A DNA stretch of 64,000 bases from Zoogloeaceae bacterium G21618-S1 (lineage in GTDB: Bacteria > Pseudomonadota > Gammaproteobacteria > Burkholderiales > Rhodocyclaceae), in NCBI GenBank assembly GCA_027214125.1, contig JAPWHF010000001.1, forward strand, positions 1 through 64,000. The letters are read 5' to 3'. Position 1 is the stretch's first letter, and every line of letters starts with the position of its first letter. The position numbers were made by a program, and so were the translations under genes. A model generated the notes under the pieces. It was not told where the DNA came from, did not search any database, and saw only the letters and a list, made by a program, of their open reading frames with translations. Shown here one piece after another: positions 4,126-30,049 of the stretch.

Positions 4126-4743
4126 TCATGGCCGAGCCCTGGCCACGCAACCGTTGAAGAAGAGGTCGAGCATGTCGTCCAGCGCATCGCGCAGCGCCAA
4201 ATCCGGCGTCGCGAGCCAGCGCAACAAGGTGGACAAGTGCAGGAAGTGCAAGGCTTCGGCCAGTTGTTGCGGCGAATGGCGCGTCGCGATCTCACCGGCG
4301 CCCTGCCCCTCGGCGAGCAAGCCGGCATAGATGCGATCCAGCCCGCTCCCGCCTTCGGCACTAGACGCGCCGGCCGGCTGGCTCAGGCGGTAGCGGATGT
4401 AATGCGGCAGGTAATCGCGCATGTCAGCCGCGTAGTCGCCGGTGGCAAGCAGGAAGATACGCAAGCGCTCCGCACAACTCGCCGCGGTCGGAAGGGCTGC
4501 GAGGACGCCGGGCATGCGCGCGACCAGATCGGCATGCATGCGGTGGCGCACCAGCGCTTCCTTGACCGGAAAGTGGTTGTACAACGTGCCCTTCGCCACA
4601 TCCGCGGCCGCGGCGATCTGCTCCATCGTCACCGCCTCGTAGCCATGCGCCTCGAACAGATCGAAAGCGATGGTCACGACATGATCGGCGGTTTGCTGAC
4701 GCTTGCGCGAGCGGCGAGATAGGGGGGAAGACACTTGAGACAT
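4126..4743 (-). CDS. TetR/AcrR family transcriptional regulator
   Basis: A 205-residue TetR-type repressor. The N-terminal helix-turn-helix covers about residues 20-65 (AFDLFEAHGYEAVTMEQIA then GTLYNHFPVKEAL, a classic TetR recognition-helix signature). The C-terminal ligand-binding domain is not recognisable to a specific effector class. It begins with an Arg/Lys-rich stretch (RRSRKRQQ). The Shine-Dalgarno sequence is weak. It points the same way as the PEP-CTERM and PEP-synthase-like genes 159 bases downstream, which may be its targets. A pair of direct repeats sits about 40-70 bases upstream of its own start, suggesting autoregulation. Confidence 0.93.
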   Translation of the reverse strand: MSQVSSPLSRRSRKRQQTADHVVTIAFDLFEAHGYEAVTMEQIAAAADVAKGTLYNHFPVKEALVRHRMHADLVARMPGVLAALPTAASCAERLRIFLLATGDYAADMRDYLPHYIRYRLSQPAGASSAEGGSGLDRIYAGLLAEGQGAGEIATRHSPQQLAEALHFLHLSTLLRWLATPDLALRDALDDMLDLFFNGCVARARP

Positions 4744-14691: not shown

Positions 14692-14760
14692 GGCGCCGCA
14701 CCCCGCCCGAGCGTGCCAAAATGGCCGCCCGATCACCCCGCACAAGCGCCCCGCCCGCCC

Positions 14761-15411
14761 ATGCCCCGCTACGCCCACATCATTTTTGACCTCGACGGCA
14801 CGCTGATCGACTCCGCGCCGGCCATTCTCGCCAGCTTTCAGGCCGCCTTCGACGCCGCCGGCCTCACCCCGATGCGCCCCATCACGGCAGACATCATCGG
14901 GCCCCCACTGACCGAAACCCTGCAACTGCTCAGCGGCAGCCACGACGCCGACACCATCGCGATGCTCACCGAGCACTTCAAGGCCGCCTACGACGGCGAA
15001 GGCCTCAAGCAAACCGCCGCCTACCCGGGCGTCGGCGACATGCTCGCCCAGCTGCATAGCCAGGGCGTCACTATGCATATCGCCACAAACAAACGCCTCG
15101 CCCCCACCCTCACGATTCTCGACATGCTGGGCTGGCGCGCGTACTTCGACGCCGTCTACGCCCTCGATATGCTCACCCCACGACTCCCCAACAAGGCCGC
15201 CATGATCGCCCGCCTGCTGGCCGACCTGACCATCTCCACCGACACCGCCGCCTATGTCGGCGACCGCCTCGAAGACGGCGAATCGGCCAGCGCCAACGCC
15301 CTGCCCTTCTTTGCCGCCACCTGGGGCTATGGCGCCATCGCGCCGGACGACTTGGGCCCCGGCTGGACCCACCTCCCCGCGCCCACCGCCCAAACCCTGC
15401 TTGCCCCCTGA
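14761..15411 (+). CDS. HAD-superfamily hydrolase, phosphoglycolate-phosphatase-like
   Basis: A 216-residue HAD phosphatase. Motif I FDLDGTLIDS lies near the N-terminus with nucleophile and acid aspartates. The Thr of motif II is in HIATNKR, and motif III/IV is YVGDRLEDGESA. It has the size and helical cap of Gph-like enzymes. The true substrate is not readable from sequence: phosphoglycolate or another small phosphate ester. The ATG gives the motif-proximal N-terminus expected for the family. No clear Shine-Dalgarno sequence. It sits between the diguanylate cyclase and the sugar cluster. Confidence 0.88.
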   Translation: MPRYAHIIFDLDGTLIDSAPAILASFQAAFDAAGLTPMRPITADIIGPPLTETLQLLSGSHDADTIAMLTEHFKAAYDGEGLKQTAAYPGVGDMLAQLHSQGVTMHIATNKRLAPTLTILDMLGWRAYFDAVYALDMLTPRLPNKAAMIARLLADLTISTDTAAYVGDRLEDGESASANALPFFAATWGYGAIAPDDLGPGWTHLPAPTAQTLLAP

Positions 15412-15509: not shown

Positions 15510-16283
15510 ATGAAAGCAGTCATCCTCGCCGGTGGGCTGGGCAGCCGGCTATCCGAAGAGACCCACCTCAAGCCCAAACCAATGGTCGACATCGGCGGCC
15601 GGCCGATCCTGTGGCATCTGATGAAGATCTTCACCTGCCACGGCGTCACCGAGTTCATCATCTGCCTCGGCTACAAGGGCTATGTGGTGAAGGAGTACTT
15701 CGCCAACTACTTCCTGCACACCTCCGACGTCACCTTCGACATGCGCGACAACCGCATGGAAGTGCACGAACAGCACACCGAGCCCTGGCGCGTCACGCTC
15801 GTCGACACTGGCGAGCACACCATGACCGGCGGTCGCCTGGCCCGGGTGCGGCGCTACCTTGAAGACGAAGAGGCGTTTTTCTTCACCTACGGCGACGGCC
15901 TCGGCAATGTCGATCTCACGGCCCTCGCCCGTCACCACAAGGCGCACGGCAAGCTGGCGACGGTCACCGCCGTCGCACCACCGGGGCGCTTCGGCACGCT
16001 GGCGCTCGACGGCGACACCGTCAGCGGCTTCAAGGAGAAACCCGCTGGCGACGGCAATCTGATCAACGGCGGCTTTTTCGTTCTCTCACCCAAGGTCATC
16101 GACACCATCGCCGACGACGCCACCACCTGGGAGAACGAACCGGTGGCGGAGCTCATCCGCCGCGACGAGCTGCGCGCCTTCCGCCACAGCGGCTTCTGGC
16201 AGCCGATGGACACGCTACGCGAGAAGAACCTGCTCGAAACACTCTGGGCCTCAGGCAAGGCACCCTGGAAATGCTGGGGTTGA
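15510..16283 (+). CDS. rfbF: glucose-1-phosphate cytidylyltransferase
   Basis: A 257-residue nucleotidyltransferase that makes CDP-glucose from CTP and glucose 1-phosphate, the first step of CDP-deoxyhexose synthesis. Signatures are the N-terminal [20 protein letters not shown] and [12 protein letters not shown] at the metal site, with NGGFFV and [11 protein letters not shown] near the C-terminus. The second of two close ATGs is used because AAAGG lies nine bases before it. The stop overlaps the start of rfbG by 13 bases, so the genes are coupled. This gene opens the sugar cluster. Confidence 0.95.
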
Positions 16284-17386
16284 TCCGCAAAGCCTTCGCT
16301 GGCCGACGGGTGTTCCTGACCGGCCATACCGGCTTCAAGGGCGGCTGGCTGAGCCTGTGGCTCAAGCACCTCGGCGCCGAGGTGTACGGCTATGCGCTGG
16401 CGCCAGACACCACCCCCAACCTGTTCACGCTGGCCAAGATCGGCGATCACCTTGACTCGACCGTCGGCGACATCCGCGATGCCGACGCCCTGCACACTGC
16501 CTTGGTCCGCGCCCGGCCCGACATCGTGCTGCACCTGGCCGCGCAGCCGCTGGTCCGCCTGTCCTACCGCGAACCGGTCGCCACCTTTGCCACCAATGTC
16601 ATGGGCACGGCACACCTGCTCGACGCCGTTCGCACGGTCGACTCAGTCCGCGCCGTGCTCGTGGTCAGCAGCGACAAATGCTACGACAACCGCCCCGGCA
16701 AATTACCGCCCGGCGGGTTTCGCGAAACCGACGCCATGGGCGGCACCGACCCGTATAGCGCCAGCAAGGGCTGCACCGAACTGGTTGTCGACAGCTGGCG
16801 GGCAAGCTTTTTCCCGCCCGAGCGGATCGCAGAACACGGCGTGGCGGTGGCCTCGGCCCGCGCCGGCAATGTCATCGGCGGCGGCGACTGGGCCGGCGAC
16901 CGACTCATCCCCGACATGATCCGCGCCTTCGCCCAAGACCAGTCGGCGCTCATCCGCAATCCCGCGGCCGTGCGCCCCTGGCAGCATGTGCTCGAACCGC
17001 TGTGGGGCTATCTGCTGCTGAGCGCGCGCCTGCTGCAACATGATCCGGCCGATGCCACCGGCTGGAACTTCGGCCCCGACAATCGCGACGCCCTGCCGGT
17101 GGCTGAGGTTGCCGATGCGCTGTGCCGTCACTGGGGCGACACCGCCCGCTGGCACACCGACACGCCGACGGGTGCGGTGCTGCATGAAGCCGAACAACTT
17201 CGCCTCGACTGCACCCAGGCCCGCGCTCGCCTCGGCTGGCAGCCGGTCTGCCCGCTACCAGAAGCCCTCGCCCGCACCGCGCGGTGGTATCGCGAGGTCC
17301 GGCACGGCGCCGATGCAGCCGCGCTGTGCCTGACGCAAATCGCCGCGCAGGAAGCGGCCATCGCCACACTCGGAAGACCCGCATGA
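16271..17386 (+). CDS. rfbG: CDP-glucose 4,6-dehydratase
   Basis: A 371-residue short-chain dehydrogenase/reductase of the extended type. It converts CDP-glucose to CDP-4-keto-6-deoxyglucose. The NAD-binding motif is [14 protein letters not shown]. The catalytic pair lies in [11 protein letters not shown], and [10 protein letters not shown] is typical of RfbG. Overlaps with rfbF upstream and the epimerase-like gene downstream (ATGA) show a tight operon. Confidence 0.95.
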
Positions 17387-17970
17387 GCAGCCCCGACCGC
17401 CGCGTCGCCAACGGGCGCTTTCTGGTCGAAGACACGCCGCTGGCCGGGCTCAAACGGGTCCAGCGCTTTCCGCTGGAAGATGCGCGCGGCGCGCTTGAGC
17501 GCCTGTATTGCAGCAGTCTGTTTACTGCCTGCGGCATCGACGCGGCGATTGCCCAGATCAACCGGACCCGCACCTACGCCGCCGGCACGGTTCGTGGCCT
17601 GCACTTCCAGCACCCGCCGCACGCCGAGGTCAAGTTCGTGCAGTGCCTGCGCGGCGCGGTGTTTGACGTCGCGGTCGATCTGCGCGCCGGCTCGCCAACC
17701 TTCCTCCAGTGGCATGCCGAAGTGCTGTCGCGGGACAACCTCACCGGCCTGCTCATCCCAGCCGGTTTCGCCCACGGCCTGCAAACACTCAGCGACGACA
17801 CCGAGTTGCTCTACCTGCACACCGCCGCCTACACACCCGAGGCCGAAGACGGTATCGACGCACTCGACCCGCAACTCGCGATCGACTGGCCGCTGCCCAT
17901 TGCCGAGCGCTCCGAACGCGATCTCGCGCTGCCCCACATTCACCCGGATTTCACAGGTCTGAGCGCATGA
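17383..17970 (+). CDS. dTDP-4-dehydrorhamnose 3,5-epimerase-like protein (RmlC family)
   Basis: A 195-residue cupin of the RmlC family. Conserved pieces are GTVRGLHFQHPPHAEVKFVQ, FDVAVDLRAGSPTF, IPAGFAHG and the C-terminal DPQLAIDWPLP. It should epimerise the 4-keto-6-deoxy sugar made by RfbG. Given the CDP pathway it probably acts on a CDP sugar rather than the dTDP sugar of rhamnose synthesis; that is inferred from neighbours. The ATG overlaps the rfbG stop and its own stop overlaps the next start. Confidence 0.9.
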   Translation: MSSPDRRVANGRFLVEDTPLAGLKRVQRFPLEDARGALERLYCSSLFTACGIDAAIAQINRTRTYAAGTVRGLHFQHPPHAEVKFVQCLRGAVFDVAVDLRAGSPTFLQWHAEVLSRDNLTGLLIPAGFAHGLQTLSDDTELLYLHTAAYTPEAEDGIDALDPQLAIDWPLPIAERSERDLALPHIHPDFTGLSA

Positions 17971-19193
17971 AATGCCGCCACTGCCAAAGTCCGCTTCAGC
18001 TATCGCTGGTTGACCTGGCCACCTCGCCCCCGTCGAACGCCTATCTGCGCACCGACCAGCTCGACAGCCCCGAGCGCTGGTATCCGCTGCGCGTGCTGGT
18101 CTGCGAGCACTGCTGGCTGGTGCAGACCGAAGACTTCACCCAGGCCGACCAGCTGTTCGACGCCGACTACGCCTACTTCAGCAGTTTTTCAGACGCCTGG
18201 CTGAAGCACGCCCAAACCTATGTCACGACGATGATCGAACGCTTCGGCCTCAGCGCCGCGCACCGCGTGGTCGAAATCGCCTCCAACGACGGCTACCTGC
18301 TCCAATACGTGCAGGCCGCGGGCATCCCCTGCTACGGCATCGAACCCACCGCCAGCACCGCGGCGGCGGCGCGCGCCAAGGGCGTCGAAAGCATCGAACG
18401 ATTCTTTGGCACCGCTCTGGCGGATGAACTGGCAACGGCAGGCCGGCGGGCGGACCTGATCGCGGCCAACAATGTGCTTGCCCATGTGCCCGACATCAAC
18501 GACTTCGTGGCCGGCTTTGCCCGGCTGCTCACACCAGCCGGCGTCGCCACCTTCGAGTTTCCGCACCTGCTCAAGCTGCTCGAACACTGCCAGTTCGACA
18601 CCATCTATCACGAACACTTTTCCTATCTGTCGCTGACCGCCGTGGCGCGCATCTTCAAGGCCAATGGCCTGCAGGTGTTTGATGTCGAGGAATGGCCCAC
18701 GCATGGCGGCAGCCTGCGGGTCTTTGCGCAACGCACTGGTGGGCCACACGAAGTGTCGCCCGCGGTCGCGGCGATGTTGGCGCGAGAATTCCAGGCCGGA
18801 CTCACGCAGCGCGACACCTATCACAGCTTCCAGGCGCGCGCCGAGGCCATCAAGAACGCCTTTGTCGGCTTCTTGCTCGAGTGCAAGGCGCGTGGCGAGC
18901 GGGTCGCCGCCTACGGGGCGGCCGCCAAGGGCAATACGCTGATCAACTTCGCCGGCATCCGCGCCGACCTGCTGGCCTACGTCGTCGACCGCAACCCCGC
19001 CAAGCAGGGCAAGTTTCTGCCCGGCAGCCGCATCCCCATCGTGTCGCCCGAGCACCTGATCGCCGACCAGCCGGCGTGGATCGTGATCCTGCCCTGGAAC
19101 CTGCGTGATGAGGTCATCGGCCAGATGGCCGAGGCCCGGCAGTGGGGCGCGCGCTTCGTCACCGCCATCCCCGAACTTACGGTGCACGCATGA
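17967..19193 (+). CDS. sugar C-methyltransferase (zinc-binding, SAM-dependent)
   Basis: A 408-residue protein of the NDP-hexose C-methyltransferase type (TylCIII/NovU-like). The N-terminal domain has two zinc-binding cysteine pairs (CRHC at the start, CEHC near residue 52). The SAM-binding motif EIASNDGYLLQ follows, then YHEHFSYLSL and the GAAAKGNTLIN segment of the C-terminal domain. It would add a methyl branch to the keto-sugar, giving a branched-chain deoxyhexose. The ATGA start overlap puts it in the operon. Confidence 0.9.
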   Translation: MKCRHCQSPLQLSLVDLATSPPSNAYLRTDQLDSPERWYPLRVLVCEHCWLVQTEDFTQADQLFDADYAYFSSFSDAWLKHAQTYVTTMIERFGLSAAHRVVEIASNDGYLLQYVQAAGIPCYGIEPTASTAAAARAKGVESIERFFGTALADELATAGRRADLIAANNVLAHVPDINDFVAGFARLLTPAGVATFEFPHLLKLLEHCQFDTIYHEHFSYLSLTAVARIFKANGLQVFDVEEWPTHGGSLRVFAQRTGGPHEVSPAVAAMLAREFQAGLTQRDTYHSFQARAEAIKNAFVGFLLECKARGERVAAYGAAAKGNTLINFAGIRADLLAYVVDRNPAKQGKFLPGSRIPIVSPEHLIADQPAWIVILPWNLRDEVIGQMAEARQWGARFVTAIPELTVHA

Positions 19194-20107
19194 AGCATGT
19201 GCTGGTCACCGGCGCCAACGGCTTCATCGGCCGCGCAGTACTGCCGTTGCTGGCCGCACGCGGATGGCAGATCAGCGCCATCAGCCGCAGGCCACAGGGC
19301 GCGACGACCACATCGACCACTTGGCACACCGCCAATCTGTTCGACACCGACGCCACCGCCCAACTGCTCGGCCACCTGCGCCCCACCCACTTGCTGCATC
19401 TGGCCTGGAACACCGAACACGGCCGCTTCTGGCAGGCGCCCGACAATCTGCGCTGGATGAGCGCCAGCTTGTCGCTGCTGCAAGCCTTCGCCCAGGCGGG
19501 CGGCAAGCGCGCCGTGGTTGCCGGCACCTGCGCGGAATACGACTGGCAACATGGTTTCTGCCACGAAGACATCACCCCCTGCACGCCCCACAGCCTCTAC
19601 GGCGAGGCCAAGCTGGCCACCCACCGCCTGGCCCGCCACCTCCTCGTCGGCACCGGCACACAACTGGCCTGGGGCCGGGTATTTTTTCCCTACGGCCCGG
19701 GCGAGGCCACCGGCCGGCTGATCCCCTCGGTCATGCAGGCCATGGACACCGGCGGCCCGGTGCGTTGCAGCCACGGCCGGCAGTTTCGCGATTTTGTGCA
19801 TGTGGATGATGTCGCGGCGGCCTTCGCGCATCTGCTCGACATGGCCGACGACGGCGTCTTCAACATTGCTTCCGGCATGCCGACCCAGCTACGCCAGATC
19901 GTCCTCACCCTGGCGCGGCTGATGCATTGGACCGGCACCCCCGACTTCGGCGCCATCGCCGTGCCCGCCGACGATCCGCCCCTGCTCGTCGGCGACATCA
20001 CCCGGCTGCGCGCGACTGGCTGGCAACCAACGGTCACGCTTGAAGACGGCCTCATTCACACGCTTGCCGACTGGCGCCAGCCGCGCCAGCAACCCAGGAG
20101 CCCGTAA
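19190..20107 (+). CDS. NAD-dependent epimerase/dehydratase (sugar 4-ketoreductase-like)
   Basis: A 305-residue extended SDR. The nucleotide motif is GANGFIGRAVLPLL and the catalytic YGEAKLA matches YxxxK. FCHEDITPCTPHSLYG and RQFRDFVHVDD are typical of NDP-sugar reductases and epimerases. In context it is the best candidate for reducing the 4-keto group after epimerisation and methylation. The exact product is not known. It starts inside the methyltransferase stop and ends with TAATG shared with the next gene. Confidence 0.9.
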   Translation: MKHVLVTGANGFIGRAVLPLLAARGWQISAISRRPQGATTTSTTWHTANLFDTDATAQLLGHLRPTHLLHLAWNTEHGRFWQAPDNLRWMSASLSLLQAFAQAGGKRAVVAGTCAEYDWQHGFCHEDITPCTPHSLYGEAKLATHRLARHLLVGTGTQLAWGRVFFPYGPGEATGRLIPSVMQAMDTGGPVRCSHGRQFRDFVHVDDVAAAFAHLLDMADDGVFNIASGMPTQLRQIVLTLARLMHWTGTPDFGAIAVPADDPPLLVGDITRLRATGWQPTVTLEDGLIHTLADWRQPRQQPRSP

Positions 20108-20835
20108 TGGACGACCACCAACAATTCGCTGCCGATTGCGCAAAAGAAATCCAGGCCCAGGCCGACGATGCCGAATTCCGGCAGCTGTCTCGCGCCTGGA
20201 TGGACCGCGCCCAGCAACTGCGCTACTCCTACCATTTCGAGTGGATGGGGCGGCCGATCATCCAGTACCCCACCGACATCCTCGCCATGCAGGAGCTGAT
20301 GTGGCGCATTCAGCCCGAGCTGGTGATCGAGACCGGCATCGCCCGCGGCGGTTCACTCATCTTCTACGCCTCGATGATGCAGATGCTCGGACGCGGCGAG
20401 GTGCTGGGCATCGACATCGATATCCGCGCACACAATCGCGAAGCCATCGAATCACACCCCATGGCCAGCCGCATCCGCATGATCGAAGGCTCCAGCCTGG
20501 ATGCCGCCATCGTCGCGCAGGCCGCCGCAGCGGCCGAGGGCAAGAAGGTGATGGTGGTGCTCGACTCCAACCACACCCATGAACACGTGCTCGGCGAACT
20601 CGAACGCTACGCCCCGTTCACCTCACCCGGCAGCTATTGCGTGGTGATGGACACCGTGGTCGAAGACATGCCGGCCTCGCTGTTCGGCGACCGCCCCTGG
20701 GCGCCAGGCGATAACCCGAAAACCGCCGTCCACGCCTGGCTCAAGACCCACCCGGAGTTCGAGATTGACCACGCCATGGACGCCAAACTCGCCGTCTCCG
20801 TCGCGCCGCACGGCTACCTGCGCCGTCGCGCCTGA
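20107..20835 (+). CDS. cephalosporin-hydroxylase-family (CmcI-like) methyltransferase
   Basis: A 242-residue protein of the CmcI family. Despite the name, members are mostly SAM-dependent O-methyltransferases, often acting on sugars. The Rossmann core is seen in ETGIARGGSLIFYASMMQML and GIDIDIRAHNREA, and VVLDSNHTHEHVL is typical. It probably O-methylates the deoxyhexose in the glycan. It starts within the previous stop (TAATG) and is followed by the large glycosyltransferase after 25 bases. Confidence 0.88.
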   Translation: MDDHQQFAADCAKEIQAQADDAEFRQLSRAWMDRAQQLRYSYHFEWMGRPIIQYPTDILAMQELMWRIQPELVIETGIARGGSLIFYASMMQMLGRGEVLGIDIDIRAHNREAIESHPMASRIRMIEGSSLDAAIVAQAAAAAEGKKVMVVLDSNHTHEHVLGELERYAPFTSPGSYCVVMDTVVEDMPASLFGDRPWAPGDNPKTAVHAWLKTHPEFEIDHAMDAKLAVSVAPHGYLRRRA

Positions 20836-20860
20836 CCCGCTCATTCAAGGACGCCCCGCC

Positions 20861-23800
20861 ATGGCCGAGCACCGCATCGACATCATCATCCCCTGCTACA
20901 ACTACGCCCACTTCCTCGACGAATGTCTGGCGGCCATCGCCGCGCAGACCCGGGGCGACTACCAGGTGCTGGTGATGGACAACGCCTCGACCGACGACAC
21001 CCCCGAGGTCGCCGCGCGGTGGATGGCGCAGGACAGCCGCATCCGCTATCACCGCAACGACACCAACCTCGGCGCGGTCGGCAACATGAAGCGCGGCTAC
21101 GAGCTGACGGCAGCAGAGTACGTGGTGATCCTGCCGGCCGACGACCTGTGGGGCCCGACATTTCTCGAGGCCACCTGCAACGGACTCGACGCCTACCCCG
21201 AGTGCAGCTACGCCTACACCGGCTGGCACACCACGCATGGCGGGCTGGACGCCCCCGAACAGCCAATGACCTGGATTCCACATGATCGCAGCGGCGTGGT
21301 CGAGGACATGGCCTCGCTCATCATCCAGAACTACATCCCGCTGTCCTTCGGGGTGTTCCGTCGCAGCCTGTGCGAAAAGGTCGGCGGCGCCTACCCGCTG
21401 TTCCTGCCCATGCTTGGCGACCTGTATCTGTGGATGCGCCTGGCGGCGGTCGGGCCGGCCTATTACGTTAACGAAAACATCTGCCGCCTGCGCATGCACG
21501 GCGCCAACGAGTCCTTCGCCCTGCATGCCACCGGCCGCAGCGCCTTCGACCACATCCACCTGCTCGATCTCGTCTTCCAGTCCGACCAATGGCCGATGTC
21601 GCTGCGCCTGCTCGCCAAGGCGCGACAGATGCAGCTACTCACCGGCGCCAAGCTCACAGACATCGTCAACAGCCTCGGCAGCAAGGAGGCGATACCGATC
21701 TTCAAGGAGTACGTAGACGGCGCCCGCGACGATCTCATCGTCGTCACCGCCATGGCGATTCGCGCCTGCAGCGGCCGCGCCGCCGGCTTGAGCGACACCT
21801 TGCATGACGCCAACGCCATGCTGGCCCGCATGGCCGCCGAAAAGACCGGCACCCAGGCACTGAACCTGCTCGGCCAGACACCAGACAGTCAGTCTGGCGC
21901 CATGAATCGCGACTACGAGAGCTTTCTCAACGCGCGCAACTATCTCGAAACCGATCACACCCTGCTCCAGCGTGTCATGCGCCGCTGGCCGCAGGAACCG
22001 CGCATTCACATGCTGGTGCACGCAGTCGCCGCCGACTATGGTCTGCTCGCCGACACTCTCGACAGCGTCGCCCAACAACCCTACCCGCTGTGGACCCTGA
22101 CCGTACTGGCACCCACGCCCTGCCCCGATCCCGCGATCGAAGACGTTGCCAATATCGAATGGCGGATCGCCCCGACGCACCGAGACGTCAAAGCGGTCAG
22201 CGATGCAGCCGTTGCCGAAAACGGCTGCGACGTCGTCGCCCTCCTGCCCCCGGGCAGCCGCCTCGACCCGTTCTGTCTGTGGCGGATCGCGCATGAGTTC
22301 GCCACCAACACCTCCATCGGCGCGTGCTACTGCGATGACGACGTCAGCCGACACGGCGACGACCGGGTCGAACCGCGCTTCAAGCCAGACATGCTCCCCG
22401 ACATGCTCACCGCAACCGATTACGTCGGCCCACTGTGGATGCGTCGCACGGCGTACGCCGCCGCCGGGGGATGCAGCGAACTGCCGGGCGCGCATTTCTA
22501 CGACCTGACGCTGCGCGTCCTCGACCAGATCGGCGCCCCGGCCATCGGACACATTTCGGATCCGCTGCTGAGCCTGCCGGTGTCGCCGCATGTGCTCATC
22601 TCCGACGGCGACGCGATGGCCGCGGTGCAGGCCCATCTGGCACGGCGCGGCGTGTCCGGACAAGTGCGCCCGGGACATCTGCACGCCACCTGGCGCATCG
22701 AGTACCAGCACAGCACCACGCCCTCGGTCGACATCATCATTCCCTTCCGCAATCACCTCGAGTACCTGTCGCCCTTGCTCGAGAGCCTGCTCGACAAGAC
22801 AGACTACGCCGAGGCCCGCATCACGCTGGTCAACAACGCCTCCGACGATCCGGACATGCTCGCCTGGCTGGCAACCCAGATCGCCACGCACCCCGACCGC
22901 CTGCGACGCATGGACATCGACGGCGAATGGAATATCTGCCAGCTATTCAATACCGCCGTCGCAGCGAGCGAAGCCGAATTCGTCGTGCTGATGCATAACG
23001 ACGTACAAGTGCTGAACGGCAACTGGCTGTCCCGACTGCTCAACCACGGCCAACGCCCCGAGGTCGCGGGCGTCGCGCCACGACTGGTCACCCCGGGCAG
23101 TCAGGCGCTCGACTTCACCGGCAGCGTCGTCGGTCTGGCCCCGTTCATCGGCTCGCCAGACACCGGCGAACGCACCATGCTCCACCCCGGCTACCTGGGG
23201 CGGCAACAGACTGACGTCAATTGCTCGGCACTCGACAGTGCAGTGCTCCTGCTGCGGCGCTCACATTTCAATGCCATCGGTGGCATGGACGAATCACAGC
23301 ATTTGAGCTACCCCACCGCCGAACTGACCCTAAGGCTCGCCGCACACGGCCGCCTGGTGTGGACGCCGTGGAGCACGGTCGCCCACTACGACGACGACGC
23401 CCCGCCACGCGAAGCCATCGCCATCGTCGAGCACGAAGCCGAACTGGCGCGCAACGAACTGACCCGACTCACCCAGGAGCGGCAGTTGATCACGCGCTGC
23501 CTGCCCCTGATCCGCCACGACCCGGCCTGGAACCCCAATCTGCTGCTCGGCCACCAGGACACCCGCATCGACACCGGCTGCGCGGTCGGCTGGCGACACC
23601 TGCCGGTTCCCGACATGCCACGCATCATCGCCGACCCGGTCAGCGGCGCGGGCGAGTATCGCGTCACCGGGCCATTACGCGCCGCACGTCGGGCCGGCAA
23701 GGCGCTGGGCGCCTTCTTCAGCTATCCGGACACCCGCAAACGGCGCATCCCGACCCTGGCCGACCTCGCCCGGCTCGACGGCGCGAGCAGCTTCATCCTT

Positions 23801-24610
23801 CACCACGGCTTCTCGAATCAGCACATCCAGTTGCTCCAGCAGATGCAAACCTATCTGCCCTCGCTGCTGCGCGTCGCCTCGATGGACGACCTCGCCACCG
23901 CCGTGCCGGAGAAGAGCAATCTGTTCGATCACTGGTCGCGCGACACCCGCTCCCGGGTGCGCAATGCCATTGGGCTGTGCGACCGCCTCATTGTGTCGAC
24001 CGAACCGCTGGCCGAGTTCGCCCGGCACATGATCGACGACATCCGTGTCGTTCCCAACCGGCTCGAATGGGCACGCTGGGGGCATGTCGCATCACAACGC
24101 CGGGTCAGCACCAAACCACGGATCGGCTGGGCCGGCGCGATGCAGCACGCCGGCGATCTGGCCTTGATCCGGGACGCGATCATCGAAACCCACCAGGAGG
24201 CCGACTGGGTCTTCTTCGGCATGTGCCCGGAGGACATCAAACCCTATGTCCGGGAGGTGCATGACTGGGTGAATTTCGATGACTATCCGGAAAAACTCGC
24301 CAGCCTGAATCTGGATCTGGCAGTCGCGCCATTGGAAATCAATGCGTTCAACGAGGCCAAGAGCAACTTGCGCCTCCTGGATTACGGTCTGCTCGGCTGG
24401 CCGGTGGTGTGCACCGATGTCGCGCCCTACCGCAGCGCGCCTGTTACACGGGTTAACAATTCCACCCGCGAATGGGTCGACGCCATTCGTGCACATTTAA
24501 ACGACCTTGACGCCACCGCGAAAGCCGGTGACCGCCTGCGCGACTGGGTGCTCGCCGACTACATTCTTGAGCATCACGTGGACGACTGGCTGGCCCAGCA
24601 CCTGCCCTAA
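20861..24610 (+). CDS. very large multi-module glycosyltransferase
   Basis: A 1249-residue protein with four recognisable glycosyltransferase-like parts. (1) A family-2 GT-A domain, about residues 5-230 (IDIIIPCYNYAHFLDECL, VVILPADDLW). (2) A second, divergent family-2 domain, about 370-600 (SIGACYCDDDVSRHGDDR, then FKPDMLPDML). (3) A third family-2 domain, about 620-870 (SVDIIIPFRNHLEYLSPLL, VVLMHNDVQVLNGNWL). (4) A C-terminal GT-B-like half, about 980-1249 (RIGWAGAMQHAGDLALI, SNLRLLDYGLLGWPVVCTD). No transmembrane segment or signal peptide. It is the last gene of the sugar operon and is followed by a strong terminator, then by flagellin genes. It probably builds an oligosaccharide, perhaps directly on flagellin in the cytoplasm. 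The ATG is chosen for AAGG upstream and for matching the GT2 start. Confidence 0.88.
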   Translation: MAEHRIDIIIPCYNYAHFLDECLAAIAAQTRGDYQVLVMDNASTDDTPEVAARWMAQDSRIRYHRNDTNLGAVGNMKRGYELTAAEYVVILPADDLWGPTFLEATCNGLDAYPECSYAYTGWHTTHGGLDAPEQPMTWIPHDRSGVVEDMASLIIQNYIPLSFGVFRRSLCEKVGGAYPLFLPMLGDLYLWMRLAAVGPAYYVNENICRLRMHGANESFALHATGRSAFDHIHLLDLVFQSDQWPMSLRLLAKARQMQLLTGAKLTDIVNSLGSKEAIPIFKEYVDGARDDLIVVTAMAIRACSGRAAGLSDTLHDANAMLARMAAEKTGTQALNLLGQTPDSQSGAMNRDYESFLNARNYLETDHTLLQRVMRRWPQEPRIHMLVHAVAADYGLLADTLDSVAQQPYPLWTLTVLAPTPCPDPAIEDVANIEWRIAPTHRDVKAVSDAAVAENGCDVVALLPPGSRLDPFCLWRIAHEFATNTSIGACYCDDDVSRHGDDRVEPRFKPDMLPDMLTATDYVGPLWMRRTAYAAAGGCSELPGAHFYDLTLRVLDQIGAPAIGHISDPLLSLPVSPHVLISDGDAMAAVQAHLARRGVSGQVRPGHLHATWRIEYQHSTTPSVDIIIPFRNHLEYLSPLLESLLDKTDYAEARITLVNNASDDPDMLAWLATQIATHPDRLRRMDIDGEWNICQLFNTAVAASEAEFVVLMHNDVQVLNGNWLSRLLNHGQRPEVAGVAPRLVTPGSQALDFTGSVVGLAPFIGSPDTGERTMLHPGYLGRQQTDVNCSALDSAVLLLRRSHFNAIGGMDESQHLSYPTAELTLRLAAHGRLVWTPWSTVAHYDDDAPPREAIAIVEHEAELARNELTRLTQERQLITRCLPLIRHDPAWNPNLLLGHQDTRIDTGCAVGWRHLPVPDMPRIIADPVSGAGEYRVTGPLRAARRAGKALGAFFSYPDTRKRRIPTLADLARLDGASSFILHHGFSNQHIQLLQQMQTYLPSLLRVASMDDLATAVPEKSNLFDHWSRDTRSRVRNAIGLCDRLIVSTEPLAEFARHMIDDIRVVPNRLEWARWGHVASQRRVSTKPRIGWAGAMQHAGDLALIRDAIIETHQEADWVFFGMCPEDIKPYVREVHDWVNFDDYPEKLASLNLDLAVAPLEINAFNEAKSNLRLLDYGLLGWPVVCTDVAPYRSAPVTRVNNSTREWVDAIRAHLNDLDATAKAGDRLRDWVLADYILEHHVDDWLAQHLP

Positions 24611-24625
24611 AACCAAGCGAACACG

Positions 24626-24660
24626 GGGGATGCAGACCATGCAATCCCCTTTTTCCTTTT
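24626..24660 (+). terminator. intrinsic terminator of the sugar/glycosyltransferase operon
   Basis: GGGGATGCA (24626-24634) pairs with TGCAATCCCC (24640-24649, one bulged A), followed by a run of T with two C interruptions to 24660. It sits 15 bases after the glycosyltransferase stop and separates this transcript from the flagellin genes. Confidence 0.85.
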
Positions 24661-24697
24661 AGGCAAAGTCGCCCGGCATTGCCACTGCACCGCAGCA

Positions 24698-24733
24698 TTC
24701 GGCGCCGACGTCCCTCAAGGGCGCGGCGCCGAA
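24698..24733. repeat. GC-rich inverted repeat before the flagellins
   Basis: A perfect 10-base inverted repeat, TTCGGCGCCG (24698-24707) and CGGCGCCGAA (24724-24733), with a 16-base spacer that can fold further (CCCTCAAGGG). It lies between the terminator and the candidate flagellin promoter. Each arm contains the palindrome GGCGCC. No T-run. It could be an operator or a second transcription barrier. Confidence 0.5.
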
Positions 24734-24783
24734 ATCCTTTGCGGCAGGGCGATTGACGCCTATCGCCAAATGAAAAATCAGTC

Positions 24784-24810
24784 TTCAGTTTTTTACTGCG
24801 TCGCCGTAGG
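24784..24810 (+). promoter_or_regulatory. candidate sigma-28 (FliA) promoter of flagellin genes
   Basis: TTCAGTTT, 11 bases, GCCGTAGG resembles the FliA consensus TAAAGTTT-N11-GCCGATAA: 6 of 8 at -35, and GCCG intact at -10. It lies about 85 bases before the first flagellin ATG. The 5' leader would contain a small hairpin, TGGCA/TGCCA (24826-24841). Confidence 0.5.
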
Positions 24811-24893
24811 TAGGGCCATGGGGACTGGCACATCAATGCCAAACAGATCCTCAGTCAGACCAGAGCTGAACCAGTTGAATCAGGAGATTTACC

Positions 24894-25688
24894 ATGGCAC
24901 AAGTTATCAACACCAACGTGTACTCGCTGAATGCCCAGCGAAACCTCAACCGCAGCCAGGAAGGCTTGGCCACGTCGCTGCAGCGCCTGTCCTCCGGCCT
25001 GCGCATCAACAGCGCCCGTGACGACGCCGCCGGCCTCGCCGTGGCTCAGCGCATGGAAGCCGACGCCCGCGGCCTGACTGTCGCCATGCGTAACGCCTCT
25101 GATGGTATCTCATTCGCCCAGACCGCTGACGGCGCACTGGCAACGTCCGCCGACATGCTGCAACGGATGCGCGAACTGGCCGTCCAATCGCTCAACGGCA
25201 CCATCTCCAACACCGAACGCGGCTACCTCAACGCCGAATTTGGCCAACTGGATGCCGAGCTGGGTCGTCTGCAAGGCGCAGCCAAACTCAATAACCAGTC
25301 GGCATTCGGCGCCTTTACTTTCCAGATCGGCGCAGCAGCGGCCGACAGCATGGCCGCCACCTTTACCAGCGTGGCCTCCATCGGCGGCGCGGTCAGTACC
25401 GCCGCAGCGGCGGCACTGGCCATTGCCTCAATCGACAACGCACTCAACAGCGTCGCCAGTAACCGCGCCACCGTCGGCGGCGTGATGGGCCGGATGCAAT
25501 TCACCATTCAGCAGCTTGAAACGGCACGTGAGAATCAGTACGCCGCACGAAGCCGGATCATGGACGCAGACTTCGCGATGGAAACGGCCAGTCTGACCCG
25601 CGCGCAGATTCTGCAGCAGTCGGGTACCGCGATGGTGGCCCAGGCCAACAGCGTGCCGCAAAACGTGCTCTCGCTGCTGCGCGGCTAA
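24894..25688 (+). CDS. fliC: flagellin, copy 1
   Basis: A 264-residue short flagellin, the structural subunit of the flagellar filament. It has the conserved N-terminal D0/D1 domain (MAQVINTNVYSLNAQRNL, RLSSGLRINSARDDAAGLA) and C-terminal D1/D0 domain (ENQYAARSRIMDADFA, ending VLSLLRG). The D2/D3 outer domains of long enteric flagellins are missing. Between about residues 150 and 180 lies a Ser/Thr/Ala-rich segment, the most variable part among the three copies here. AGGAG precedes the ATG. It is the first of three tandem copies and has the best candidate FliA promoter. By hand comparison it differs from copy 2 at about 19 residues. Confidence 0.97.
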   Translation: MAQVINTNVYSLNAQRNLNRSQEGLATSLQRLSSGLRINSARDDAAGLAVAQRMEADARGLTVAMRNASDGISFAQTADGALATSADMLQRMRELAVQSLNGTISNTERGYLNAEFGQLDAELGRLQGAAKLNNQSAFGAFTFQIGAAAADSMAATFTSVASIGGAVSTAAAAALAIASIDNALNSVASNRATVGGVMGRMQFTIQQLETARENQYAARSRIMDADFAMETASLTRAQILQQSGTAMVAQANSVPQNVLSLLRG

Positions 25689-25702
25689 CAACATCTATTG
25701 AC

Positions 25703-25726
25703 GGGCTGAGCCATTCGGCTCAGCCC
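25703..25726. repeat. hairpin between flagellin copies 1 and 2
   Basis: A perfect 10-base inverted repeat GGGCTGAGCC / GGCTCAGCCC with a 4-base loop, in the 67-base gap. No T-run follows, so it may stabilise the 3' end of the first flagellin message rather than terminate it. Confidence 0.6.
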
Positions 25727-25755
25727 CAGCAACATCGATCGCCAAGGAGATCGTC

Positions 25756-26550
25756 ATGGCACAAGTCATCAACACCAACGTCTATTCGTTGAACGCTCAA
25801 CGTAACCTCAATCGCAGCCAGGAAGGCCTCGCCACCTCCCTCCAGCGCCTGTCCTCCGGCCTGCGCATCAACAGCGCCCGTGACGACGCCGCCGGCCTCG
25901 CCGTGGCTCAGCGCATGGAAGCCGATGCCCGCGGCCTGACTGTCGCCATGCGTAACGCCTCGGACGGCATCTCCTTTGCACAGACGGCTGACGGCGCATT
26001 GTCAACATCCGCCGACATGCTGCAGCGGATGCGCGAACTGGCCGTCCAATCGCTCAACGGCACCATCTCCGACACCGAACGCGGCTACCTCAACGCCGAA
26101 TTCGGCCAACTGGATGCCGAGCTGGCTCGCCTCCAAGGTGCGGCAAAACTCAATAACCAATCGGCGTTTGGCGCCTTCACCTTCCAGATTGGCGCAGCAG
26201 CGGCCGACAGCATGGCGGCCAACTTTGCCAGCGTTGCTGCCGTCGGTGGTGGCGTGGGCACCTCGGCCACCGCGTCCGCCGCCATCTCCGCGATCGACAA
26301 TGCGCTGAACAGCATCGCCAGCAACCGCGCCACCATCGGCGGTGTGATGGGCCGGATGCAATTCACCATCCAGCAGCTCGAAACGGCACGTGAGAATCAA
26401 TACGCTGCACGTAGCCGGATCATGGATGCAGACTTCGCCTCTGAAACCGCCAATCTCACGCGGGCACAGATTTTGCAACAGTCGGGTACCGCGATGGTAG
26501 CGCAAGCGAACAGCGTCCCGCAGAACGTGTTGTCGCTGCTACGTGGCTAA
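25756..26550 (+). CDS. flagellin, copy 2
   Basis: 264 residues, the same length as copy 1 and nearly identical in the filament-core domains. Changes cluster in the central segment: about 12 replacements between residues 150 and 180, where this copy reads GGGVGTSATASAAISA. A strong AAGGAG precedes the ATG. The 67-base gap to copy 1 has no clear promoter of its own, so it may be read from the copy 1 promoter. The high DNA identity of the ends suggests recent duplication or ongoing gene conversion. Confidence 0.96.
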   Translation: MAQVINTNVYSLNAQRNLNRSQEGLATSLQRLSSGLRINSARDDAAGLAVAQRMEADARGLTVAMRNASDGISFAQTADGALSTSADMLQRMRELAVQSLNGTISDTERGYLNAEFGQLDAELARLQGAAKLNNQSAFGAFTFQIGAAAADSMAANFASVAAVGGGVGTSATASAAISAIDNALNSIASNRATIGGVMGRMQFTIQQLETARENQYAARSRIMDADFASETANLTRAQILQQSGTAMVAQANSVPQNVLSLLRG

Positions 26551-26608
26551 TCCAACCAATTTGGGATCGTCCGACTGACCGACAGCCGGACGCCAAAAGG
26601 AGGCTGTC

Positions 26609-27403
26609 ATGGCACAGGTCATCAACACAAACGTCTACTCGCTGAATGCTCAGCGCAACCTCAACCGTAGCCAGGAAGGTCTGGCCACATCGCTCCAACG
26701 GCTCTCGTCCGGCCTGCGCGTCAATAGCGCCCGTGACGATGCTGCCGGTCTGGCGGTGGCTCAACGGATGGAGGCAGACGCACGTGGTTTGACCGTTGCC
26801 ATGCGCAACGCTTCGGACGGCATCTCCTTTTCCCAAACCGCCGATGGCGCCCTGGGCACATCGGCGGACATTCTTCAACGCATGCGAGAACTGGCAGTGC
26901 AATCGCTCAACGGCACCATTTCCGACACCGAGCGCGGCTATCTGAATGCAGAATTTACGCAACTCGATACCGAACTCGGCCGTCTGCAAGGCGCCGCCAA
27001 ACTCAACAACCAGTCGGTGTTCGGCACCTTCACCTTCCAGATTGGCGCAGGCGCCGCCGACAGCATGTCGGCCACCTTCACCAGCGTGGCCTCGATTGGT
27101 GGCGCGGTCAGCACGAGTGCCACTGCCGCACTGGCCATCGCCTCGATCGACAACGCGCTGAACAGTGTCGCCAGCAACCGCGCCACCATTGGTGGTGTGA
27201 TGGGTCGGATGCAATTCACGATCCAGCAACTCGAAACCGCGCGCGAGAATCAATACGCCGCACGCAGTCGCATCATGGACGCCGACTTTGCCGCGGAAAC
27301 CGCTGCCCTGACGCGCGCCCAGATTTTGCAGCAATCCGGCACCGCCATGGTGGCTCAGGCCAACAGCGTGCCACAAAGCGTTTTGTCTTTATTGCAGGGT
27401 TAA
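26609..27403 (+). CDS. flagellin, copy 3
   Basis: 264 residues with intact flagellin N- and C-terminal domains. It is the most divergent copy at DNA level: synonymous changes run through the 5' third. It has unique replacements such as RVNSARDD, SFSQTADG, VFGTFTF, and VLSLLQG at the end. The central segment is closer to copy 1. AAAGGAGG lies just before the ATG. Retention of three intact copies argues for distinct use, for example filament zones or antigenic or glycan variation. Confidence 0.96.
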   Translation: MAQVINTNVYSLNAQRNLNRSQEGLATSLQRLSSGLRVNSARDDAAGLAVAQRMEADARGLTVAMRNASDGISFSQTADGALGTSADILQRMRELAVQSLNGTISDTERGYLNAEFTQLDTELGRLQGAAKLNNQSVFGTFTFQIGAGAADSMSATFTSVASIGGAVSTSATAALAIASIDNALNSVASNRATIGGVMGRMQFTIQQLETARENQYAARSRIMDADFAAETAALTRAQILQQSGTAMVAQANSVPQSVLSLLQG

Positions 27404-27498: not shown

Positions 27499-27918
27499 AT
27501 GAGCATCCAGCCCGTCACCTCTACCGCTGCACAGTTTGTGTCACCGCAAGCCGCGTCTGGCGGCCGGGCAGGATCCGCTCCAGGACAACCCAATGCAGCC
27601 GAGCAGATTCAGCAGGCTCAGGCCCTGGAAAAGGCCAACGCGGCACGCGACGCGCAGGCCAAGACAGCACTTGAGCAGGATCCGGCTAAACTGAAAGAGG
27701 CCGTCGAGCGAGCCCAAGCGTCACTGCAAGCCATCGCTCGTGACATCACCTTCAGCCTGAACGACAAATCAGGCACGGTGGTGATCAAGGTCATTGAACG
27801 CGAGTCCAAGGAAGTGATCCGACAGATTCCGTCGGAAGAGTTTCTGAAAATCGCCGAAATGCTCAACGACAACATCGCCGACATCCGCGCGGGCTTGCTC
27901 GTCGAGCAAAAAGCGTAA
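27499..27918 (+). CDS. flaG: FlaG family flagellar protein
   Basis: A 139-residue protein with a Gln/Ala-rich variable N-terminal half. The conserved FlaG domain covers about residues 75-135 (FSLNDKSGTVVIKVIERESK, then EVIRQIPSEEFLKI). FlaG lies between flagellin and FliD in many polar-flagellated bacteria and affects filament length. CAGGAG precedes the ATG. fliD follows after 14 bases. Confidence 0.93.
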   Translation: MSIQPVTSTAAQFVSPQAASGGRAGSAPGQPNAAEQIQQAQALEKANAARDAQAKTALEQDPAKLKEAVERAQASLQAIARDITFSLNDKSGTVVIKVIERESKEVIRQIPSEEFLKIAEMLNDNIADIRAGLLVEQKA

Positions 27919-27932
27919 CAGGGAGGCTAATC

Positions 27933-29279
27933 ATGGCCACCGGCAGCATTTCATCACTGGGTATCGGCTCCGGCCTCAACTCGAACGACATCGTCAGCCA
28001 ACTGATGGCGCTCGAGCGTCGTCCGCTGACCGCGCTGACCCAAAAAGAATCGTCCTTCTCGGCCAAGATTTCGGCACTCGGTTCGGTCAAAAGCAAACTG
28101 TCCGAACTGCAGACCGCCTCGAAGACGCTCAGCGACCCCAACAAGCTGGCCGCTTTTGCCGCCACGGTCGGTGACAGCGACATCATATCTGCCACGGCAG
28201 ATACCTTTGCCAAGAACGGCAGCTACGCCATTGACGTGGTGCAGCTGGCCAAAGCACAGAAATCCTTTTCGTCCATTCAGGCCGGCGGCACCACCTTTGG
28301 TGCCGGCACACTCAGTTTTTCGATCAACGGCAATACCCAGGATGTTGTACTCGCCAGCGGTGGCAACAGCCTGCAGGATGTGGCCAACGCCATCAACGAC
28401 GCCGGTATCGACGTGCGCGCAACCGTGGTCACCGGCGACGCCGGCAGCCGTCTGGTGCTCACCTCGAAAGAGACCGGCACCGACAATGCCTTTACGCTGT
28501 CGGTGAGCGGAGGCGACCCCAACCTGACCGGTCTGGCCACCTTCGACGGCGCACACCCCAACGCGACCACGGCGCTCAATTCGATCATCACCATCGAAGG
28601 CGAAACCGTTACCTCGCAAAGCAATACCGTCACCAGCGGTATTTCCAATGTCACCGTCACGGCGAAAGCAATCGGGTCCAGCACACTCGACGTGGCGCGG
28701 GACAGCACCGGCATCGAAACCGCGGTCAAAGCCATGGTCGACGCCTACAACAGCCTACGCCTCGACATCGGCACCAAGAGCGCCTACAACGCCGAGACCA
28801 AGGTCGGCGAGCCGCTCAACGGCGACTCCGTCACCCGCACGCTGCTCGGCCGCATGCGCGACACCATGGGCACCGTGCCCACCAGCATTGCCGGCAGCGA
28901 CTATCAATACTTGTTCAGTATCGGCGTCTCCTTTGCGCAAGACGGCACGCTGACGCTCGACAGTACCAAGCTCAACAACGCGGTCGCCACCGATTTTGAC
29001 GGCGTCGTCAATACACTCGGCGCCTACGGCACCGCCATCGACACGATGGCCACCGCCTTCACCCAGTCCGACGGCCTGATCGACAGCAGCGTCACCGGCA
29101 TCGAATCTTCGATTTCAAACATCGACAGCCAGCGCGAACGACTGGAGCGCCAGTTTGATCTCACCGAAGCGCGTTTGCGTGCGCAATTCACCGCGCTCGA
29201 CACGCTCGTGGCCAGCCTCAACACCACAAGCACTTACCTCACACAGCAACTGAGCAGCTTGAGCAACCTGAACCAGTAG
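27933..29279 (+). CDS. fliD: flagellar filament cap protein FliD (HAP2)
   Basis: A 448-residue cap protein that folds newly exported flagellin at the filament tip. The FliD N-terminal domain starts SISSLGIGSGLNSNDIVSQL. The FliD C-terminal domain includes MVDAYNSLRLDI and ends in a coiled coil (QRERLERQFDLTEARLRAQF, then LNTTSTYLTQQL). Two similar VTSQSNTVTSGISNVTVTA segments mark the middle domain. GGGAGG precedes the ATG. It lies directly before its export chaperone fliT and near fliS. Confidence 0.97.
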   Translation: MATGSISSLGIGSGLNSNDIVSQLMALERRPLTALTQKESSFSAKISALGSVKSKLSELQTASKTLSDPNKLAAFAATVGDSDIISATADTFAKNGSYAIDVVQLAKAQKSFSSIQAGGTTFGAGTLSFSINGNTQDVVLASGGNSLQDVANAINDAGIDVRATVVTGDAGSRLVLTSKETGTDNAFTLSVSGGDPNLTGLATFDGAHPNATTALNSIITIEGETVTSQSNTVTSGISNVTVTAKAIGSSTLDVARDSTGIETAVKAMVDAYNSLRLDIGTKSAYNAETKVGEPLNGDSVTRTLLGRMRDTMGTVPTSIAGSDYQYLFSIGVSFAQDGTLTLDSTKLNNAVATDFDGVVNTLGAYGTAIDTMATAFTQSDGLIDSSVTGIESSISNIDSQRERLERQFDLTEARLRAQFTALDTLVASLNTTSTYLTQQLSSLSNLNQ

Positions 29280-29315
29280 TAATCAACGCGATCAGGACAA
29301 CAGGAAAACAGCCAC

Positions 29316-29726
29316 ATGTTCACTCATACCACCAACCCCGCTGCTGCCTACCGCACTGGCGGTATTGAAGCCGAAGCCCTGGGCACCTCACCCCACGGCC
29401 TGATCGTCATGCTGTTCAACGGCGCCCTGCTGTCCATCAATCTCGCCAAAGCCCATATGCTTGAGGGTAAAACCGGCGCCAAGGCCGAATCGATCAACAA
29501 GGCCATCGACATCATCGGCAGCGGCCTGCGCGCCGCACTGAATATCAAGGAAGGCGGCGAGCTGGCACAAAATCTCGACGACCTCTACGAGTACGTTGTC
29601 ATGCTTCTGCTCAAAGCCAACCTGAGCAACGACGCTACCTTGCTTGACGAAGCTTATCGCCTGCTCGCCGACATCGGCAGTGCCTGGACAGAGCTGGGCC
29701 AGAAGCAAGCGGCCGGCACGCCCTGA
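29316..29726 (+). CDS. fliS: flagellin export chaperone FliS
   Basis: A 136-residue helical protein. The FliS pattern is clear: AYRTGGIEAEALGTSPHGLI, then VMLFNGALLSINLAKAHM, and later LDDLYEYVVMLLLKANL. FliS binds the C-terminus of flagellin in the cytoplasm and prevents early polymerisation. It would meet the three flagellins encoded upstream, before or after any glycosylation. AGGAAA precedes the ATG. Confidence 0.95.
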   Translation: MFTHTTNPAAAYRTGGIEAEALGTSPHGLIVMLFNGALLSINLAKAHMLEGKTGAKAESINKAIDIIGSGLRAALNIKEGGELAQNLDDLYEYVVMLLLKANLSNDATLLDEAYRLLADIGSAWTELGQKQAAGTP

Positions 29727-29737
29727 GGAGACTCTCC

Positions 29738-30049
29738 ATGACCGCCCCCATCACCGACTTCACCCGTCTGGCTAGCACACTCGAAGCGCTTTCCAGCGCT
29801 GCCGAGAAAGGCGACTGGGAGCAGATGAGCACACTCCAGACCCAACAGGAGCAATTGCTCGACGCCATTCGCCAGCGGCCACATGGCCCGCAAGATCGTA
29901 GCCAGACCGCCGCACTGGCAGCGCTGATCGAACGCGCACTTGCCAGCATCCGTGCCGCGCAACCGCACATCGACACCTTGCGACAACGCACTAAAGACGA
30001 AATGGCTGGCACAAACAACCACCGAAAACTATCGCAGAGTTATCGTTAA
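29738..30049 (+). CDS. fliT: FliT-like flagellar chaperone
   Basis: A 103-residue all-helical protein, 11 bases after fliS, with TGAGGAG before its ATG. Size, position after fliS and helical pattern (EALSSAAEKGDWEQMSTLQT) fit FliT, the export chaperone of FliD. Sequence conservation of this family is low, so the call leans on context. Confidence 0.75.
   Translation: MTAPITDFTRLASTLEALSSAAEKGDWEQMSTLQTQQEQLLDAIRQRPHGPQDRSQTAALAALIERALASIRAAQPHIDTLRQRTKDEMAGTNNHRKLSQSYR

Follow-up and report, generated by a model that had tools for sequence, protein, structure and literature searches.

The window analyzed here is a 64,000-nucleotide stretch from Zoogloeaceae bacterium G21618-S1 (contig JAPWHF010000001.1, positions 1 to 64,000), and our subject within it is a run of seven plus-strand genes, six for sugar synthesis and modification (hereafter the cassette) and one for a large glycosyltransferase (GT), that ends just before three flagellin genes. 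The initial annotation had described seven overlapping or closely spaced genes in this position; their coordinates proved right, and profile searches confirmed their families. With the gene starts of the cassette corrected, the run begins with rfbF (15510..16283), encoding a glucose-1-phosphate cytidylyltransferase with CDP-glucose as its product (TIGR02623, 450 bits against a cut-off of 300), and rfbG (16271..17386), encoding a CDP-glucose 4,6-dehydratase with CDP-4-keto-6-deoxyglucose as its product (TIGR02622, 455 bits against 278). These are followed by genes for an RmlC-like 3- or 3,5-epimerase (17383..17970; PF00908 [dTDP_sugar_isom], 181.6 bits), a sugar C-methyltransferase, probably acting at C-3 (17967..19193; Methyltransf_13 and Methyltransf_14 over cut-off), a short-chain dehydrogenase/reductase (SDR)-type 4-ketoreductase or epimerase (19190..20107; PF01370 [Epimerase], 136.9 bits), a protein resembling CmcI and rhamnosyl O-methyltransferases (20107..20835; PF04989 [RMNT_CmcI], 299.4 bits), and the three-part GT of 1249 amino acids (20861..24610; Glycos_transf_2 twice over cut-off).

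Successive cassette genes overlap by 13, 4, 4, 4, and 1 nt, and a 25-nt gap precedes the GT gene; on a single strand (15510-24610), this spacing indicates an operon layout rather than chance. The cassette region has a G+C content of 65-68%, compared with 64% for the window, and we rejected the idea that composition marks it as a foreign island. A terminator had been proposed at the end of the operon. A bulged hairpin (24625-24649) followed by T5 does lie there on the plus strand (24625..24654), but the candidate is weak: the fold of 24608-24665 has a z score of -2.26, 7 of 200 shuffles were equally good, and a simple terminator scan did not list it.

The first flagellin gene starts 284 bases past the end of the operon. 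Between the two, at 24784..24810 on the plus strand, lies a putative sigma-28-promoter-like block, conserved when the sequences of five Denitromonas genomes are set side by side. The three flagellins, all plus-strand and of 264 amino acids, are encoded at 24894..25688 (Flagellin_N and Flagellin_C), 25756..26550, and 26609..27403 (Flagellin_N in both); the second and third share 245 and 246 of 264 residues with the first, and pairwise identity among all three runs from 238 to 246 of 264. They are short and, judging by length, would lack the outer domains. Serine and threonine make up 9, 8, and 13 of the 42 residues at positions 139-180, a candidate glycosylation region. Downstream on the same strand are flaG, fliD, fliS, and fliT-like genes (27499..30049; open frames named by eye), whose order with fliC is kept in relatives.

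RfbF and RfbG are of the CDP-glucose type, both exceeding the NCBIfam equivalog cut-offs. RfbG carries S-D-K at residues 134-136 and YSASK at 162, and the pattern S-D-K...Y-x3-K is given as a CDP-glucose dehydratase fingerprint in Table 1 of PMC8987622. No other CDP-glucose dehydratase in this genome scored over the cut-off. The RmlC-like protein aligns at full length to solved RmlC enzymes and falls under the NCBIfam rmlC cut-off (140.5 against 155.75). In the C-methyltransferase, the zinc-binding (PF08421), methyltransferase (PF13489), and C-terminal (PF08484) domains are all over cut-off, and residues 3-402 align with the 3-C-methyltransferase 4rv9 (1.6e-71), with a YHEH stretch in common. 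The closest solved chains to the SDR include MoeE5 and a GDP-6-deoxy-4-hexulose reductase. The CmcI-like protein is far short of the curated rhamnosyl O-methyltransferase cut-off (NF045824; 98 against 400 bits) and is matched by the Pfam family alone.

From these assignments we infer a sequence of sugar steps and their stereochemistry. RfbF and RfbG would make CDP-4-keto-6-deoxyglucose, which the RmlC-like enzyme would epimerize; the C-methyltransferase would then place a methyl group on a ring carbon beside the keto group, most likely C-3 and possibly C-5, and the SDR would reduce the 4-keto group to give a CDP-6-deoxy-C-methylhexose. The CmcI-like enzyme may O-methylate this sugar before or after its transfer. 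We think C-3 somewhat the better choice for the C-methylation. Flagellin may also be glycosylated with a product other than a 3-C-methyl-6-deoxyhexose, through C-5 methylation or the absence of epimerization, and this is unlikely without being far-fetched. Sugar C-methyltransferases are a family with more than one regiochemistry, novobiocin NovU acting at C-5, and the score of the RmlC-like protein under its equivalog cut-off also favors another product; yet every listed solved full-length relative of the C-methyltransferase with a regiochemical name is a 3-C-methyltransferase.

The GT consists of an exchangeable N-terminal GT2 domain, a middle GT2/GT-A domain, and a C-terminal GT-B domain. 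A model of residues 600-1249, built with 40 relatives, has a mean pLDDT of 90.9 and a pTM of 0.85. In a Foldseek search with this model, polypeptide GalNAc-transferases came first (E 8e-14, TM-score by target ~0.4), followed by GT-B enzymes, among them GlgM, PglA, and BshA, with TM-scores by target of 0.58-0.68. The output came without ranges, so the assignment of these hits to the two halves of the model is our own; by secondary structure, the first half reads as GT-A and the second as GT-B. Predicted fold kinship with enzymes that glycosylate protein Ser/Thr is compatible with a protein acceptor and is no proof of one. The nearest named matches to the GT are from Denitromonas iodatirespirans (86%, L153) and then D. 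ohlonensis (62%, L154), and the label Denitromonas that we use for family genomes derives from such nearest named matches; the window itself would come from a Denitromonas-like betaproteobacterium. In the D. ohlonensis GT core (L154 9489-10060 / L245 12155-15421), an N-terminal S-adenosylmethionine-dependent methyltransferase-like domain appears by eye to replace GT2. The best match to the N-terminal GT2 domain outside the genus (65%, L066) adjoins a cassette.

Comparison across genomes places this GT with flagellin. Some match to the GT occurs in 82 of 121 family genomes, and we fetched 40 stretches of up to 20 kb around the stronger matches, not counting the window itself and leaving out two matches above ~130 bits, one covering the N-terminal domain only (G062:C21) and one a short fragment (G084:C230). 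Of the 35 family loci where the match reaches the C-terminal end of the GT, 31 have flagellin inside the fetched stretch, with or without sugar genes, though at some of the 31 it is up to ~10 kb off rather than adjacent; where the match ends at residues 844-912, none of the five loci has flagellin. Among named genomes, flagellin lies within the 10-kb flanks of the GT in 61 of the best 80 of 511 relatives. The GT thus belongs to a kind tied to flagellin loci across beta- and gammaproteobacteria.

The cassette is distributed differently. A search of 297 family genomes at E 1e-40 gave its C-methyltransferase in 36, and we tabulated the neighbors within 10 kb for the best 30. All five of rfbF, rfbG, rmlC, the C-methyltransferase gene, and cmcI are present at 23 of the 30; cmcI is near the cassette at 26, whatever the setting, so that the substrate of the CmcI-like enzyme is more likely the sugar than flagellin. 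Flagellin is near the cassette at nine loci (G000, G110, G145, G199, G238, G095, G094, G129, and G166). The GT core is near it at seven, each with flagellin and with no Wzx beside it. The GT core is absent from the other 23: two of these have flagellin, and at 14 the 10-kb flanks hold a gene of the export or polymerase type (Wzx at six, ABC2_membrane at seven, Wzy_C at one) and no flagellin. Seven of the 30 have neither flagellin nor an export or polymerase-type gene. Association of the GT core with flagellin among the 30 loci gives a Fisher's p of 2e-5, a value that ignores kinship, five of the seven GT-core loci belonging to one genus.

Eleven of the 14 export or polymerase loci hold all five sugar genes and are O-antigen-type loci: the sugar genes move. 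The initial annotation had named, as a finding that would count against a flagellin role, the same seven genes in lipopolysaccharide-type loci of relatives. Five of the six sugar genes do recur in this way, but the GT does not, and its staying out of O-antigen-type loci counts in favor of a flagellin role at the window locus, not against it. In one genome (G037), a single contig (C54) carries a GT-flagellin locus without cassette at ~95 kb and, at 47-58 kb, a cassette with an ABC2_membrane gene as its neighbor.

A tree of 39 C-methyltransferase sequences, in which flagellin and O-antigen copies are interleaved, tells the same story of exchange. The flagellin label requires seven changes on it, at least three of them forced by starred branches. 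One starred group unites Denitromonas with G095, and the SZAS metagenome-assembled genomes, Methylophaga, L169, and Pseudomonas lie elsewhere. For this count, L135 was labeled flagellin although it lacks the GT, L131 was labeled other although flagellin is 8 kb off, and loci with ABC2 or Wzy_C were labeled other. The cassette would therefore seem, from the branching, to have been recruited several times to flagellin loci.

With such a mobile cassette, it has to be asked whether the window genes supply lipopolysaccharide or exopolysaccharide, their adjacency to fliC being accidental. The family loci in which the five core genes sit near Wzx, ABC2-type, or Wzy_C genes and apart from flagellin speak for this. 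As the initial annotation had noted, however, no polymerase or flippase gene lies in the run: Wzx (PF01943) and Wzy_C (PF04932) have no match on the window's contig (C11) and match only on other contigs, and the two ABC2_membrane genes on C11 are at 91 and 132 kb, beyond the window. We rejected an O-antigen cluster on these grounds. The GT that closes the operon is also of a fliC-linked family, and the arrangement recurs in several lineages, so that we hold an accidental adjacency to be very improbable. Somewhat less improbable, but still doubtful, is a sugar made at this locus and shared between flagellin and O-antigen, the latter through GTs elsewhere. Nucleotide sugars diffuse, and polysaccharide genes are present on contigs C55, C8, and C22 of the genome; on the other hand, a second CDP-glucose dehydratase is absent, and our tools gave no sign of use elsewhere, which was not tested directly. 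A flagellin island is favored by the genome's only CDP-glucose dehydratase lying at the locus while Wzx and Wzy_C lie on other contigs.

The same arrangement is found in other lineages, where the cassettes outside the family are solely those reached via the GT. At a Methylophaga locus (L163), the end of a Flagellin_N protein at 4274 is followed by rfbF from 4311, and two flagellins come after the GT; we read the Flagellin_N protein, which has no Flagellin_C match, as a probable FlgL. Pseudomonas putida 700447 has, in order, a flgL-like gene, a GT, the cassette, a GT, pseudaminic-acid-type genes (by Pfam), a FabH-like gene, and two flagellins on one contig (L231 is identical to the start of G297:C12). 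Its island (L234 3709-11265) thus holds the CDP C-methyl cassette together with pseudaminic-acid-type genes. In Pseudomonas sp. RIT288, the cassette sits between a flgL-like gene and fliC. More loci with cassette, GT, and flagellin are L169, L188, L191, and L197; in the last, from Paludibacterium yongneupense, tblastn found no RfbG.

Within Denitromonas, the cassette occupies a variable slot bounded by sensor kinase-GGDEF-HAD genes on one side and fliC on the other, so that content varies between fixed flagellar flanks. In the window, the left border is a HAD (gph-like) gene (14713..15411, plus strand; open frame named by eye), and a HAD gene stands beside the slot in all 10 Denitromonas-group genomes mapped. 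Five of these (G000, G110, G145, G199, and G238) hold the C-methyl cassette with three flagellins. Two others (G060 and G175) hold rfbF, rfbG, RfbH (674 and 693 bits against a cut-off of 423), an RmlC-like gene, and an SDR gene, with flagellin 18-21 kb past the rfbF start. By its gene content this set is a predicted CDP-3,6-dideoxy route, its product presumably ascarylose-like. Between these genes and the GT, both genomes encode radical-SAM proteins, one near B12-binding types (L240 3912-5600; L242 2106-3440 and 5568-7040). In G220, the slot is a 178-base gap followed by a GT with a different N-terminus, and no CDP-glucose dehydratase was found at E 1e-60. In G253 and G266, HAD-rfbF-rfbG lies on contigs that end short of fliC; G253 (L243 2082-9979) also has NeuB-cupin, TylF-like, and FkbM-type proteins and an iron alcohol dehydrogenase beside rfbFG. 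Nine of the 10 genomes thus have rfbFG next to the HAD gene, and it is the tailoring genes that differ.

Several observations weigh against a flagellin island. Because the cassette also serves as an O-antigen-type module in relatives, its sugar could reach another acceptor. The export and polymerase searches were uneven, PF01943 having been run in all 30 genomes and PF01061 and PF04932 in 18, of which only G000 belongs to the GT-core set; moreover, PF01061 spans many transporters, and several cassette contigs are short. Flagellin was out of reach at 4 of the 35 family GT loci (L052 and L075, both at contig ends, and L077 and L080) and at 19 of the 80 named loci, although two of the 19, from Pseudomonas, were later found to have flagellin, and some others stop at contig ends. 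Finally, the N-terminal GT2 domain also occurs where the cassette is missing, with a 48% match in G060, which lacks the C-methyltransferase. Strict co-travel of this domain with the cassette was rejected, there being 53% and 48% matches in L064 and L065, flagellin loci without a cassette.

Nevertheless, the sugar and GT genes lie inside the flagellin region, alike in five Denitromonas-group genomes, the GT family sits by fliC, and in Methylophaga and two strains of Pseudomonas the cassette is again flanked by a flgL-like gene and fliC. These results support the flagellin glycosylation originally proposed, and we consider it likely that the locus is a flagellin glycosylation island, with flagellin as the target that we infer from comparison. 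The large GT would act in the cytoplasm, before export, decorating Ser/Thr residues in the three flagellins with a short glycan; its middle and C-terminal domains would lay the inner sugars, and the N-terminal GT2 domain would probably add the special sugar. A broader proposal seems to us evenly poised: the filaments of Denitromonas, some Methylophaga, Pseudomonas, and others may bear a CDP-derived O-methylated 6-deoxy-C-methylhexose; the cassette may move between O-antigen-type and flagellin loci; and the Denitromonas slot may alternate C-methyl with 3,6-dideoxy CDP sugars, the flagellar surface type changing through exchange of the tailoring genes against a constant background of rfbFG and the GT core. 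If true, this would bring a branched-chain CDP sugar into the range of known flagellin decorations and provide a clear case of sugar genes serving O-antigen or flagellin according only to the neighboring transferase. The slot would also offer a natural series (C-methyl, dideoxy, none) on the role of the flagellin glycan in free-living bacteria, for example, toward phages and grazers.

The initial annotation had judged the combination of a CDP route and a C-methyl branch unusual for flagellin islands. In the open-licence literature we found no paper that describes flagellin loci with a CDP cassette of the C-methyl kind, nor one on cassette sharing with O-antigen-type loci or on the within-genus swap. 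The CDP route has precedent. CDP-sugar genes in flagellin islands have already been published as predictions, and hence this kind of system is known rather than new. Enterobacterial flagellin glycosylation island type 23, from four strains, shares the CDP-4-keto-6-deoxyglucose genes but has other GT families, and section 8 of PMC4875605 mentions no C-methyl branch. The flagellin island of Clostridium butyricum DSM 10702 (RfbF, RfbG, RfbH, RfbS; CDP-paratose predicted; PMC13317340) matches the rfbFGH version of Denitromonas G060 and G175; its sugar is 3,6-dideoxy rather than C-methyl, and its GTs are others (a glucosyltransferase, and Maf in other strains).

The window C-methyltransferase belongs to the same three-domain family as TylC3 and TcaB9 (4rv9 and 3ndi), with a nearly whole-length alignment. 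The substrates of those enzymes are dTDP sugars of antibiotic biosynthesis, whereas gene context suggests a CDP-linked substrate here. The 11 O-antigen-type loci have the same rfbF-rfbG-rmlC-C-methyltransferase-cmcI set, with order mostly kept, but have an export or polymerase gene near and neither flagellin nor such a GT. In overall design, there is a close parallel with the Pseudomonas islands as far as PMC3927599 describes them (PAK; P. syringae, with fgt1 and fgt2 upstream of fliC and a viosamine island): these share large GT genes just upstream of fliC, dedicated deoxysugar synthesis and methylation genes, and strain-variable content, Fgt1 and the window GT being likened by description. 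They differ in using dTDP-rhamnose and dTDP-viosamine derivatives, where the window combines a CDP route and a C-methyl branch.

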